48,094 nucleotides of DNA, from contig PLHF01000128.1 in the NCBI GenBank assembly GCA_003138855.1, positions 1-48,094 of the forward strand. The letters run 5' to 3'. Below the pieces are notes generated by a model. That model was not told where the DNA came from and ran no database searches. It worked only from the letters and a program-made list of their open reading frames with translations. Each line of letters opens with the position of its first letter. Position 1 is the first letter of the stretch. Positions 35,645 to 41,807 of the stretch are shown one piece after another. This DNA comes from Acidimicrobiaceae bacterium (GTDB taxonomy: Bacteria; Actinomycetota; Acidimicrobiia; Acidimicrobiales; RAAP-2). Made by a program: the position numbers and the translations under genes.

Positions 35645-36568
35645 ATGAGATTCGGAGTCATCCCCCCTGTCCGCACCGGGGTCACCGCCGACCCGGCCTG
35701 GATGACCGCGTTCGCCCGCCATGCGGAAGGATGCGGCTTCGAGTCGGTCGTCCTCGTGGAACATGCGGTGGTGGTGTCGGGCTATCGGAGCACCTATCCG
35801 TACGCGTCCTCGGGGAAGATGCCGCTCCCCGACGACTGTGCGATCCCCGATCCCCTCGACTTGATGGCCTTCCTGGCGGGCGTGACCGATCGGATCACCC
35901 TGGCCACCGGTGTGTTGGTGTTGCCCAATCACCACCCGGTGGTGTTGGCCAAGCGGATCGCCACCGTCGACGTGCTGTCCCGGGGCCGGGTCCGGATGTG
36001 CGTGGGGGTCGGGTGGATGGACGAGGAGCTGCGGGCCACGGGGGCTGATCCGCGCAGCAGGGGTCGGCGAACCGATGAGGCGATCGCCGCCATGCGGGCG
36101 CTGTGGGCAGACGCCGGGCCGGGCGGGGCCGACTTCGACGGCGAGTTCTTCGCGTTCCACCACGCCCACTCGTTTCCCAAGCCGGCGCGGCCGGGTGGTG
36201 TTCCCATCCACATCGGCGGCCACAGCGAAGCTGCCGCCCGCCGGGCCGGGCGCATGGGGGACGGGTTCCAACCGCTCGGGCTCGCCGCGGAGGTCCTCGC
36301 TGTCCGCATGGCCCAGCTGCGCGACTCGGCCGAGGAAGCGGGCCGCGACCCCGGTGCCATCGAACTCTCGGTGTCCGGTTATCTCCCGACCACCTCCGAG
36401 CGGGACGTGGCCGATGCCGAGTCGGAGGGGGTGGCACGGATGTTGCTGTCCACCTCGATGACCGAGGACCTCGACCGGGTCCACGATGAGCTGTCCGCGT
36501 TCGCCGAGCGATTCGGCCTGCGTGCGGACGCCGGTCCGCGCCGCACGGACGGGGCCGACCGGCTGTGA
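35645..36568 (+). CDS. LLM-class (luciferase-like, probably F420-dependent) oxidoreductase
   Basis: A 307-residue TIM-barrel flavin/F420 enzyme. MRFGVIPPVRTG at the start, the strand ITLATGVLVLPNHHPVVLAK (~80-99), GRVRMCVGVGWMDEELRATG (~110-129) and the later GVPIHIGGHSEAAARRAGRM (~184-203) are typical of the actinobacterial LLM family that uses F420H2 or FMNH2. ATG 35645 is chosen because it gives the usual N-terminus. Its TGA overlaps the GTG of the next gene (GTGA), so the two are co-translated. The substrate is not known; such pairs often act in degradation or detoxification. Confidence 0.88.
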   Translation: MRFGVIPPVRTGVTADPAWMTAFARHAEGCGFESVVLVEHAVVVSGYRSTYPYASSGKMPLPDDCAIPDPLDLMAFLAGVTDRITLATGVLVLPNHHPVVLAKRIATVDVLSRGRVRMCVGVGWMDEELRATGADPRSRGRRTDEAIAAMRALWADAGPGGADFDGEFFAFHHAHSFPKPARPGGVPIHIGGHSEAAARRAGRMGDGFQPLGLAAEVLAVRMAQLRDSAEEAGRDPGAIELSVSGYLPTTSERDVADAESEGVARMLLSTSMTEDLDRVHDELSAFAERFGLRADAGPRRTDGADRL

Positions 36569-37128
36569 CCGGCATCGGTACCGGTGCCGGTGGGCGGGCG
36601 CCCGCAACCGGGCCCGACGGGCTACGGCTTGCACCCGGGGCGGACGAGCAGGCGCTGCGCCACCTGACGACGGCCTACGCCATGGCAGTGGACGAGCTCG
36701 ACGGCGATGAACTGGCCGAGCTGTTCGTGCCCGACGGTGAGCTGGTGGTGCCGAACTTCCCCGAGGATCTCCGACCGGTGGTGACACGGACCGGCCACGA
36801 TGCCATCCGGAAGGTTCCCGAAGGCCTGCGACGCTATGCACGCACGTTCCACCAGGTATCGGACCACCGGTTTGCAATCGCGGGGGGCGCGGCCACCGGC
36901 GCGGTCCGTTGCGTCGCCCACCACCTCCTGGCTGAGGACCCGACAGCGGACGCCACCGGGGGAGGCGGCCCTGGCACCGACGTCGTGTGGTTCATCCGGT
37001 ATGCCGACGAGTACCGGCGCACCGGGTCGGGGTGGAAGTTCCTGCGGCGGGTGCTCCACCTCTTGTGGGTGGAGGAGCATTCCGTCACAGTGCGCGCCCT
37101 CCCCGCCACCGGCCGGGGCCAGCGGTAG
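36565..37128 (+). CDS. SnoaL/NTF2-like protein
   Basis: A 187-residue protein of the NTF2/SnoaL_4 fold: a long first helix (DEQALRHLTTAYAMAVDELD), then ELAELFVPDGELVVPNF, a strand-rich core with HQVSDHRFAI and RCVAHHLL, and a C-terminal WKFLRRVLHLLWVEEH. Members are cyclases, dehydratases or small ligand-binding proteins. GTG 36565 overlaps the preceding oxidoreductase stop, so the proteins probably act on the same compound. A Gly/Ala-rich lead of about 25 residues comes before the fold. Confidence 0.8.
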   Translation: MTGIGTGAGGRAPATGPDGLRLAPGADEQALRHLTTAYAMAVDELDGDELAELFVPDGELVVPNFPEDLRPVVTRTGHDAIRKVPEGLRRYARTFHQVSDHRFAIAGGAATGAVRCVAHHLLAEDPTADATGGGGPGTDVVWFIRYADEYRRTGSGWKFLRRVLHLLWVEEHSVTVRALPATGRGQR

Positions 37129-37157: not shown

Positions 37158-37517
37158 TCAGCGCGCTGGTACCGGTTGCGGAGGAGGTGGGCCGACGTAG
37201 CGGGCAGCCGGCCGGATGAGCCGGTTGTCGGCGACCTGTTCCATCACGTGAGCGGACCAGCCGATGATCCGGCCGGAGGCGAAGGTGGGCGTGAACATAT
37301 CGCGAGGGATCCTGCAGGAGTGCATGACCACTCCGGCGAAGAACTCGACGTTGGTGTAGAGCCGGCGCCCGGGCTTCAACTCGGCGAGCACGTCGAGGGT
37401 GGTCTGCTCGACCTGCTGGGCGAACTCGACCAAGGGGCCGCCGAGCGAGGCGGCCATCTCACGGAGGAAGCGCGAGCGCGGGTCGTCGGTCTTGTAGACG
37501 CGGTGACCGAAGCCCAT
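37158..37517 (-). pseudogene. Citrate synthase, C-terminal fragment (minus strand)
   Basis: 119 residues beginning exactly at the citrate synthase motif MGFGHRVYKTDDPRS. They continue through LYTNVEFFAGVVMHSCRIPR, MFTPTFASGRIIGWSAHVME and an RPAARYVGP end. This is only the last third of a normal citrate synthase (about 370-430 residues). It lacks the preceding GPLHGGA region with its catalytic His. Just upstream on the minus strand the frame is unrelated and meets a stop within about 30 bases. The break point abuts a second citrate synthase fragment on the opposite strand, so an internal deletion or an assembly misjoin removed both 5' halves. Confidence 0.85.
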
Positions 37518-37959
37518 CGCCGGCCCGCTCCACGGAGGTGCCAGCCAGCTGGCCTACTCCCTGCTGGTCGATGTCCGGCGGCTGGGGGTCGAGCGAGCCC
37601 TGAACGACACCCTCCGGTGGCAGGGGCTGCTCCCCGGTTTCGGCCACACCGTCTACAAGGACGGAGATCCGCGGTGCACGGTCCTGCTCGACCTCTTCGA
37701 CGAAGTGGCCCGCCCCGAGGATGCCGAGCTGATCGGGTCGCTGCTCGAGCTCGCCGCCGAACACACCATCCCGCCACCCAATGTCGATCTCGGATTGGCC
37801 GCCATGGCGTGGGCCACGGGGATGCCGCCCGATGCCGGCCAGGTCCTCTTCACGGTGGCGCGGGTGGCCGGATGGGTGGCCCACTATCTCGAAGAGCTGG
37901 AGGAACGGCCCCTTCGCTTTCGGGCCCGAGCCATCTACGCCACCACCCACCGGCACTGA
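37507..37959 (+). pseudogene. Second citrate synthase-like C-terminal fragment (plus strand)
   Basis: The frame opens just after a TGA at 37504 and runs without a proper start through GPLHGGASQLAYSLL, LPGFGHTVYKDGDPRC, PPPNVDLGLAAMAWATGMPP and QVLFTVARVAGWVAHYLEEL. It stops at 37959. These are the citrate synthase motifs from the catalytic-His loop to the end, but of a different paralogue from the minus-strand fragment (GFGHTVYKDGDPR versus GFGHRVYKTDDPR). The N-terminal half is missing. The two fragments overlap by about 11 bases at their broken ends. Confidence 0.85.
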
Positions 37960-38040: not shown

Positions 38041-38061
38041 CACCCGACCTACGCTGTGGGC

Positions 38062-38877
38062 ATGACGCTTCCTGCCCCCGACCCTGACCGCACCTGCCTC
38101 GTGACCGGAGCCTCGTCCGGCATCGGGGAGGAGATCGCAAGACTGCTGGCTGGGCGTGGGCTGGGGGTGACACTGGTGGCGCGTAGTGAGGCCAAGCTCA
38201 AGACGTTGGCCGAGGAGCTCGGTTCGACCCACGGGGTCCGGGCCGAGGCCATCGTGGCCGATCTGACCGATGAGCCCTCACGCACGGCGATCGCCACCGA
38301 GCTCGAGGGCCGGGGGCTGAAGGTCAATGTGCTCGTCAACGACGCGGGGTTCTCCACCATGGGCCCGGTGTCCCGTTCGGACCCCGCCGGCGAGGTCGCC
38401 ATGGTCCGGACCAATGTCGAGGCGGTGGTGCACCTGTGTTCGCTCTTCCTCCCGGGGATGGTCGAGCGCCGGAGCGGGGCAGTCCTCAATGTGGCGTCGA
38501 CCGCCGCCTTCCAACCGCTTCCCGGACAGGCCGGCTACGCAGCCAGCAAGGCCTTCGTGCTCTCGTACAGCCATGCCATTCGGGGGGAGTTGCGGCCCAG
38601 CGGCGTGACGGTGACCATTCTCTGCCCCGGACCGGTGGAGACGGGCTTTGCCGCCGCCGCAGGGATCAGCGACGCCGAAGCCTCGGGGGCGATGCCCCGA
38701 TTCATGTGGTTGCCGGTGGGCGCTGTGGCCAAGGCCGCTGTCGACGGGATGGACGCCAATCGAGCTGTGGTCATCCCCGGCATGGCCAATCGGGCCTCTG
38801 CGGTTGCCGGCTGGCTCTCGCCCCGAAGCGTCCTCGTCCCGATGCTGGCCAAGTACCACCCCGCCCTGCGCGATTAG
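38062..38877 (+). CDS. Short-chain dehydrogenase/reductase (SDR)
   Basis: A 271-residue classical SDR using NAD(P)H. It has the dinucleotide-binding TGASSGIGEEIA (~15-26), DLTD (~68-71), NDAG (~93-96, usually NNAG), catalytic Ser in NVASTAAF (~146) and YAASK (Tyr159, Lys163), followed by CPGPVETGF. The C-terminal stretch (MPRFMWLPVGAVAKAAVDGM, PRSVLVPMLAKYHP) matches the SDR subgroup acting on lipids or steroids. ATG 38062 is used; GTG 38056 is an alternative. The Asn-to-Asp change in the NNAG motif is tolerated in many SDRs. Confidence 0.92.
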   Translation: MTLPAPDPDRTCLVTGASSGIGEEIARLLAGRGLGVTLVARSEAKLKTLAEELGSTHGVRAEAIVADLTDEPSRTAIATELEGRGLKVNVLVNDAGFSTMGPVSRSDPAGEVAMVRTNVEAVVHLCSLFLPGMVERRSGAVLNVASTAAFQPLPGQAGYAASKAFVLSYSHAIRGELRPSGVTVTILCPGPVETGFAAAAGISDAEASGAMPRFMWLPVGAVAKAAVDGMDANRAVVIPGMANRASAVAGWLSPRSVLVPMLAKYHPALRD

Positions 38878-40091: not shown

Positions 40092-41807
40092 TCAACCAGA
40101 TCCCAGATCGGGAGCGTTGAAGCCGTAGACCGTTCCGTCTCCCCCGACCATCCAATAGCCGCCCGTGCTCGCGTCCCCCGCCATACCGACGACGGGTGCC
40201 GGGATCGGGTGCGCGCCCTCGGAGCCGTAAAAGGGCACGTCGAAGGCGAAGATCCCCCCGTCCGAGGCCACGAACCAGTAGCCCGAACCGTCAGCTGCCG
40301 ACGCCATCGAAACGATGGGCCGATTCAGGCTGAGCGCACCGGTGGAACCGTGGAAAGGGGCATCGAACGAGAAGACCCCACCATCGGAGGCCACCTCCCA
40401 GTACCCACCGGTCTGGTTGTCACTGCTGATACCGATTACCGGCCTGTTGATCGGCATACCGCCCATCGAGCCGTGGAATGCCGCATCTCCGAAGGCGAAG
40501 ATCCCACCGTCAGAAGCCACCAGCCAGTAGCCCCGATCGTCAGCGGTGGGGGCCATGTCCACCACCGGGGCATTCAGATGCTGCCCGGCCATGGACCCGT
40601 AGAAGCCTGCATCACCGAACGCGAAGGTTCCTCCGTCGGCGGCCACGAGCCAGTAGCCATTGCCGTCGCTGGTGGAGACGATGTGGGCGATGGGTGAGTT
40701 GAGCACAACGGTGGCCATGGACCCGTGGTACTGGGCATCGCCATGAGCCGAAACCGCCCCTTGCCCGTTGGTCAGCCAGTAGCCGCTGCCCGATGGCGTG
40801 GAAGCCATGCCCACTGCCGGAAGGAGGAAGGAGACGACGGGGACGGGCGGCGTGGGCGTCGGCGGCGTGGGCATGGGAGCCGGAGTGACCTGGGTGACCG
40901 TGAACGACGTGTTGTCGGTCAGGGTCGTGGTACTGGCGTCGACTTCGCCCTGCGAGTTGACCATGTCAATGGCGTCGGGCGAGAGCGTGCCGATGGGCAC
41001 GCCATTCACCATGCAGCCGGAGAACGTGACGGATCCGTAGGTGGCATACGGAGCCTGTGGCGCCATGCCGGGGTCCTCGGCGATGCATTCCGCCGAGATG
41101 TTCTCCAATCCGGGAACCGTCATCGTCGCCGTCGCACTGGTGCGGTTCGTCGAGTCAGCGACATTCAGGACGTAGCGGCCACCACTCTCGTAAGTGGTGG
41201 TTGCGACGATGGAGTCGCCGCCTCTGACCACCATGTTGGCGTACTCCACCGCGTCCGCCGGGTACATCTCATACCACGGGATGTAGTACACGGCTCCGTT
41301 CCGACAGGCCGAGTCGACCCCTTCTTGTTCCACCGTCTGCGATCCCGCGCCATCCAGTCCCGCCCAGTACGAGCTGTCCGAGTCCTCGGAGGGACCACAG
41401 GACAACAGCTTGGGGACGACGAAGGATGCCTGGGCAGAACGGAACGATCCGGTCCCGTCCGAAACGACATACCCGGCCCAATTCACGGAACGGAGGTAGC
41501 TCGTTCCATGCGCATCCACAGCAGTCGGGGTCTGGGAATTCGCTATGACCATCGGAGAAGTGTGCCAGCGATCCAGTGCCGATTGGCTCTGGGCGAAGGC
41601 TGTCGGTGCATGGGCGACGGTCAGGTGCATTGTGGCTGCGCCAGCGTGGGCCGCCGGGCACAGGGTCGCAGCGGTGGCGGTCAGGACTGCAGCGACAAGT
41701 GCGATGGCCCGAGCCCTCCGAGAGACGGGGGGAACGCGCGCGGTCAGGAGGTCACGCGTGGCGGCGGTCGATGCATCGGCAGCACGCCCGCCGTATCGCA
41801 CCACCAT
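40092..41807 (-). CDS. Secreted G1-family (eqolisin-like) peptidase with six C-terminal repeats
   Basis: A 571-residue exported protein. A basic N-terminus and hydrophobic segment ending ...LCPAAHAGA (~25-57) act as signal peptide. The peptidase domain (~105-305) shows SVNWAGYVV, SFVVPKL, SSYWAGLDG, the catalytic-Gln region QTVEQEGVDSAC (Gln161) and the Glu region SAECIAEDP (Glu244; usually AEWI.E, here Cys replaces Trp). A Pro/Thr linker (~309-325) leads to six repeats of about 42 residues with the core GYWLVASDGGIFAFGDA.F.GS (331-571), a probable beta-propeller. ATG 41807 follows AAGGGG. G1 enzymes are acid proteases; the repeats may bind surface polymers. Confidence 0.85.
   Translation of the reverse strand: MVVRYGGRAADASTAATRDLLTARVPPVSRRARAIALVAAVLTATAATLCPAAHAGAATMHLTVAHAPTAFAQSQSALDRWHTSPMVIANSQTPTAVDAHGTSYLRSVNWAGYVVSDGTGSFRSAQASFVVPKLLSCGPSEDSDSSYWAGLDGAGSQTVEQEGVDSACRNGAVYYIPWYEMYPADAVEYANMVVRGGDSIVATTTYESGGRYVLNVADSTNRTSATATMTVPGLENISAECIAEDPGMAPQAPYATYGSVTFSGCMVNGVPIGTLSPDAIDMVNSQGEVDASTTTLTDNTSFTVTQVTPAPMPTPPTPTPPVPVVSFLLPAVGMASTPSGSGYWLTNGQGAVSAHGDAQYHGSMATVVLNSPIAHIVSTSDGNGYWLVAADGGTFAFGDAGFYGSMAGQHLNAPVVDMAPTADDRGYWLVASDGGIFAFGDAAFHGSMGGMPINRPVIGISSDNQTGGYWEVASDGGVFSFDAPFHGSTGALSLNRPIVSMASAADGSGYWFVASDGGIFAFDVPFYGSEGAHPIPAPVVGMAGDASTGGYWMVGGDGTVYGFNAPDLGSG

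Follow-up and report, generated by a model that had tools for sequence, protein, structure and literature searches.

Two citrate synthase genes survive in the window only as 3′ remnants that face each other head to head, and a single deletion of ~2 kb in an ancestral divergent pair, which left two dead tails, is very probably their origin. The window is the whole stretch of DNA analysed here, 48,094 nucleotides from a soil bacterium of the Acidimicrobiaceae, and is part of contig C146 of a draft genome of 4.0 Mb (155 contigs, 94% complete). The minus strand carries the remnant of gene A (37158-37517, the last ~119 codons, encoding MGFGHRVYK...VPAR, opening with an ATG at 37517), and the plus strand carries the remnant of gene B (37516-37959, the last ~147 codons, encoding IAGPLHGGA...THRH). 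Both remnants are stop-free. They are divergent paralogues, and both are without their 5′ halves. The preliminary description had read this stretch as the C-terminal halves of two citrate synthases joined head to head, starting at GFGHRVYK on the minus strand and at GPLHGGA on the plus strand. The translations begin as claimed, and the identity of both halves is confirmed by the Pfam profile PF00285, which matches the minus-strand product (P0001) at 1.5e-37 over profile positions 251-357 of 357 and the plus-strand product (P0002) at 2.1e-30 over positions 211-351 of 357. Neither fragment contains the full-length enzyme domain.

The catalytic residues of citrate synthase are a His-His-Asp triad, corresponding to H274, H320, and D375 in the pig enzyme. 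In the A tail, the first catalytic His is missing and a Glu (NVEF) replaces the Asp, leaving the triad incomplete. The B tail retains GPLHGGA, GFGHTVYK, and NVD, yet its N-terminal half is gone, and it too falls short of a catalytic enzyme. NVEF in place of Asp is also found in the intact A relatives and in CitA-type chains. Closest in sequence to the A tail are citrate synthase 2 of the CitA type (PDB 6wgy and relatives) and NCBIfam PRK12350, and the A tail resembles the CitA type in having NVEF and not the usual NVDF; it differs in that intact A orthologues add two N-terminal CBS domains and that A of the window is truncated. The A tail shares 71-82% amino acid identity with intact orthologues in the genus and family, and the B tail shares 77-79% identity with its counterparts in G004 and G007. 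The sole other citrate synthase in the draft genome is full-length, is located on contig C21, and is the main enzyme. Since this main enzyme is intact, citrate synthesis is not lost.

On the left side, the remnants are flanked by an LLM-class F420-dependent oxidoreductase gene (TIGR03619, 35579-36568, +) and, immediately next to them, a SnoaL_4/NTF2-like gene (36565-37128, +). The immediate right flank is a short-chain dehydrogenase (SDR) gene (38056-38877, +), and all three flanking genes are syntenic in relatives. Elsewhere in the window, at 40092-41807 on the minus strand, there is a gene for a Peptidase A4 family (PF01828) protein, the C-terminal part of which is repetitive.

A search of 60 relatives with the plus-strand (B) tail yielded full-length orthologues from the genus and the family, most of them with a second citrate synthase nearby on the opposite strand. 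The relatives named here are metagenome-assembled Acidimicrobiales/Acidimicrobiaceae, and several isolate names (Chersky, palsa) suggest permafrost or peat sites. The gene order LLM-NTF2-A(-)-B(+)-SDR is intact in G007, G008, G013, G017, and palsa_742. In G004, the B side is present, and the start of the A enzyme domain is at the end of its contig. The divergent orientation of the two tails between the NTF2-like and SDR genes matches that of the pair in relatives, which identifies the tails as remnants of it. A divergent citrate synthase pair between these two genes had been predicted for relatives, together with one internal deletion that took both 5′ halves. The pair was seen intact when the relatives were checked, and its presence at the same place supports the proposed deletion. 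From breakpoint to breakpoint, the intact relatives span 1932-2138 bp, and G013 spans 4746 bp. We note that G013 has ~2.6 kb extra (L039:5704-8343) between an operator-like element and gene B, which parts the two. In G007, an exact 54-bp tandem duplication is found within the CBS region of gene A (L034:4761-4868), and the frame of A, when read outward from the enzyme domain, is closed at L034:4677, before it reaches the CBS start; this copy of A, too, may be damaged or wrongly assembled. Another A-type citrate synthase fragment is located at a contig end of the same genome (G007:C8:19042-19491).

A tree of the two flanking proteins, with several low support values, places the window beside G007, with G004 and G013 close. 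Since these nearest relatives all carry the pair, the loss would be derived in the lineage of the window. In six other species of the genus (G001, G002, G006, G009, G010, and G011), the pair is absent and the NTF2-like gene is followed directly by the SDR gene. Loss of the pair in the genus looks recurrent, a reading that is tentative as to how often, and in which direction, the pair changed outside the lineage of the window.

These comparisons suggest the following course of events. In the ancestor, a pair of accessory citrate synthase genes would have been transcribed divergently at this locus; ahead of the enzyme domain, A would have had two CBS domains and B a MerR-like helix-turn-helix. 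A single deletion of ~2 kb would then have removed the shared intergenic promoter/operator together with the start site and 5′ end of each gene, fusing the A and B tails head to head. The remnants would have been left as pseudogenes, their own promoter and N-terminal domains gone, and A also without its first catalytic His. We infer that both are dead and inactive.

The deletion junction is located at 37514-37517 (CCAT) by alignment with both flanks in relatives. On the A side, CCCAT is followed by GA in nearly every relative and by CGCC in the window. On the B side, relatives in the same genus and the sister genus have AC[C/G/A] ahead of the codon preceding AGPLHGG, and the window has CCC directly before ATCGCCGG. 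The sequence is A-derived up to 37517 (the Met preceding GFGH) and B-derived from 37516. The bases common to both sides are AT (37516-37517) with certainty and CCAT at most, that is, 2 bp or up to 4 bp; the 4-bp case requires an ancestral B with ACC ahead of the ATC codon, as in G007, G017, and G014. The preliminary description had the broken ends overlapping by about 11 bases and named inverted similarity between the paralogues as a possible driver of the deletion, and we abandoned both proposals. The 11 bases are at best an overlap of open frames, and as shared sequence they are ruled out by the native flanks in relatives, which leave 2-4 bp. Exchange between the paralogues is not supported either, since homologous exchange would join equivalent positions, and the breaks here fall at profile positions ~250 (A) and ~211 (B). 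The codons at the break are not equivalent, the direct homology is only 2-4 bp, and there is no direct repeat. Under a simple random model, 16% of joins would have at least 2 bases in common and 1.6% at least 4, which is frequent enough that even microhomology is not demonstrated. A join with so few bases in common suggests that the repair route was probably illegitimate end joining or replication slippage.

An imperfect inverted repeat of 38 bp accompanies the junction, with its left arm at 37477-37514 (the GFGHRVYK region of A) and its right arm at 37636-37673 (the GFGHTVYK region of B). The arms are 76% complementary, and the predicted fold is modest (z = -1.9). We rejected a hairpin at the junction as the cause of the deletion, as the arms are explained by the conserved GFGH motifs of both paralogues and nothing independent supports it; an unproven hairpin might have helped in the deletion. 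The same junction was not found in 13 congeners. It also had no match in viral contigs, a comparison that is uninformative.

These details bear on whether the join was made in the cell or in the assembly. If the genome holds an intact pair and an assembler or scaffolder joined both sides across the missing ~2 kb, the remnants would be equally undecayed. The nearby inverted-repeat arms could interfere with sequencing or with assembly, the draft genome is in 155 contigs, and the exact junction is unseen in any other genome of the genus. However, usual short-read assemblers work with k-mer lengths far above 2-4 bp, so that the direct sharing here is too short for k-mer collapse, and a repeat collapse in assembly is unlikely. 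In addition, the missing 2 kb is found nowhere else in the bin, with no trace of the missing A and B halves elsewhere in its 155 contigs (94% complete). Genomes of the genus commonly lack the pair here, and its loss is thus biologically easy. We consider an assembly error unlikely, and we infer that the junction is present in the real chromosome.

To date the proposed deletion, we compared the evolution of the tails with that of intact copies. Pairwise dN/dS values of the tails against relatives are 0.13-0.44, similar to the values among intact copies. Between the window and G013, dN is 0.12 for A and 0.20 for B, compared with 0.13 and 0.24 between G007 and G013. In a neutral simulation, the probability of no stop was 0.03 at a divergence of 0.3 and 0.48 at 0.05. 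Since the tails are stop-free without faster evolution, the deletion, if real, would be young relative to the split from G007, and the sequences suggest that the loss was probably recent. Undecayed tails imply a young allele, as would also be expected of a real deletion that is polymorphic, with other cells in the sampled population keeping the pair. We regard this special case of the deletion as doubtful, though less so than an assembly error; the bin holds no intact copy.

Open, stop-free frames with dN/dS below 1, and an ATG at the start of the A remnant, would also be expected if the tails were retained as small functional proteins, A from the ATG at 37517 (119 aa) and B from a GTG at 37705. 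The low dN/dS, however, would be inherited from before the deletion, and the shared promoter region is deleted. A lacks the first catalytic His, most of the fold is missing in both pieces, and no other genome of the genus has the junction. Retained function is therefore highly improbable, and we favor the reading that a recent deletion left two pseudogenes.

The intact genes differ in architecture. Intact A contains two CBS domains N-terminal to the enzyme domain (CBS-CBS-citrate synthase), and intact B contains an N-terminal helix-turn-helix/MerR-like domain (HTH_17 at about 1e-6 to 2e-7) followed by citrate synthase. The CBS form and the HTH form are also found side by side in the more distant G038. 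The HTH-citrate synthase is conserved from Acidimicrobiales to Nonomuraea, and loci with the MerR-like/HTH_17 domain include L039:8352-9626 (+), L036:3952-5187 (-), L041:731-2056 (+), and L074:2822-4450 (+). We found no paper on an HTH-fused citrate synthase in the open-access library searched, and one may exist elsewhere.

In most relatives, across the family, a nearly invariant element of ~24 bp, TGTAAAYRTTGATCAAGTCAAYRT, lies between the divergent CBS- and HTH-citrate synthase genes (L034:5091-5114, L038:5166-5189, L039:5680-5703, L041:723-746, and others). Its exact core is found in 20 of 149 family genomes (the window genome excluded), and 18 of the 20 carry B, a co-occurrence with a Fisher p of about 4e-15, uncorrected for relatedness. 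The core is upstream of B on the contig of B in 16 of these 18 and on another contig in G061 and G102, perhaps through fragmentation. Within the genus, the element occurs once per genome and exclusively with the pair, except for a one-mismatch match in the window genome. The exact element is absent from the window genome, as expected of a remnant whose intergenic segment was deleted, and this sole near match is internal to an unrelated coding frame on contig C134; we considered it as an orphan regulator site and judged it a chance match. From its distribution, the element is probably a candidate operator or promoter dedicated to the pair, and it may perhaps be bound by B itself. We tentatively propose, as a possibility somewhat short of even, that the intact pair is a self-contained metabolic switch, in which a metabolite-sensing B would bind the single ~24-bp site and control A, and that the lineage of the window would have lost all three parts (enzyme, sensor, and operator) at once.

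A comparable arrangement is known from Streptomyces coelicolor, in which citA3 and citA4 (SCO5831/SCO5832) are neighbouring citrate synthase genes with an intergenic regulatory site (PMC12323332). MtrA binds TTGACTTAACTGTCCA, for which positions of -92 and -16 relative to the two genes are given, and regulates citA3/citA4 negatively (PMC12323332), and control by GlnR has been reported for the Saccharopolyspora citA4 gene (PMC10704036). As in the present case, citA3/citA4 are a citrate synthase pair with a common intergenic region and regulatory site, additional to the main citA. The likeness is one of gene arrangement and site; both genes are intact in S. coelicolor, and the regulator there is MtrA.

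The proposed double pseudogenisation is an ordinary gene-loss event. The remnants resemble pseudogenes formed by microhomology deletion, in that two truncated genes are joined at 2-4 bp and a paralogue covers the function. They differ from ordinary deletion pseudogenes in that one event would have killed both members of a divergent pair together with their control region. The deletion in the window shows that the accessory citrate synthase pair is dispensable and patchy in the genus. The comparison made for the break also reveals that a short, nearly invariant DNA element connects the CBS-citrate synthase and the HTH-citrate synthase of the intact pair. As this element is almost confined to genomes that carry the pair, it offers a specific and testable hypothesis that the pair may regulate itself.
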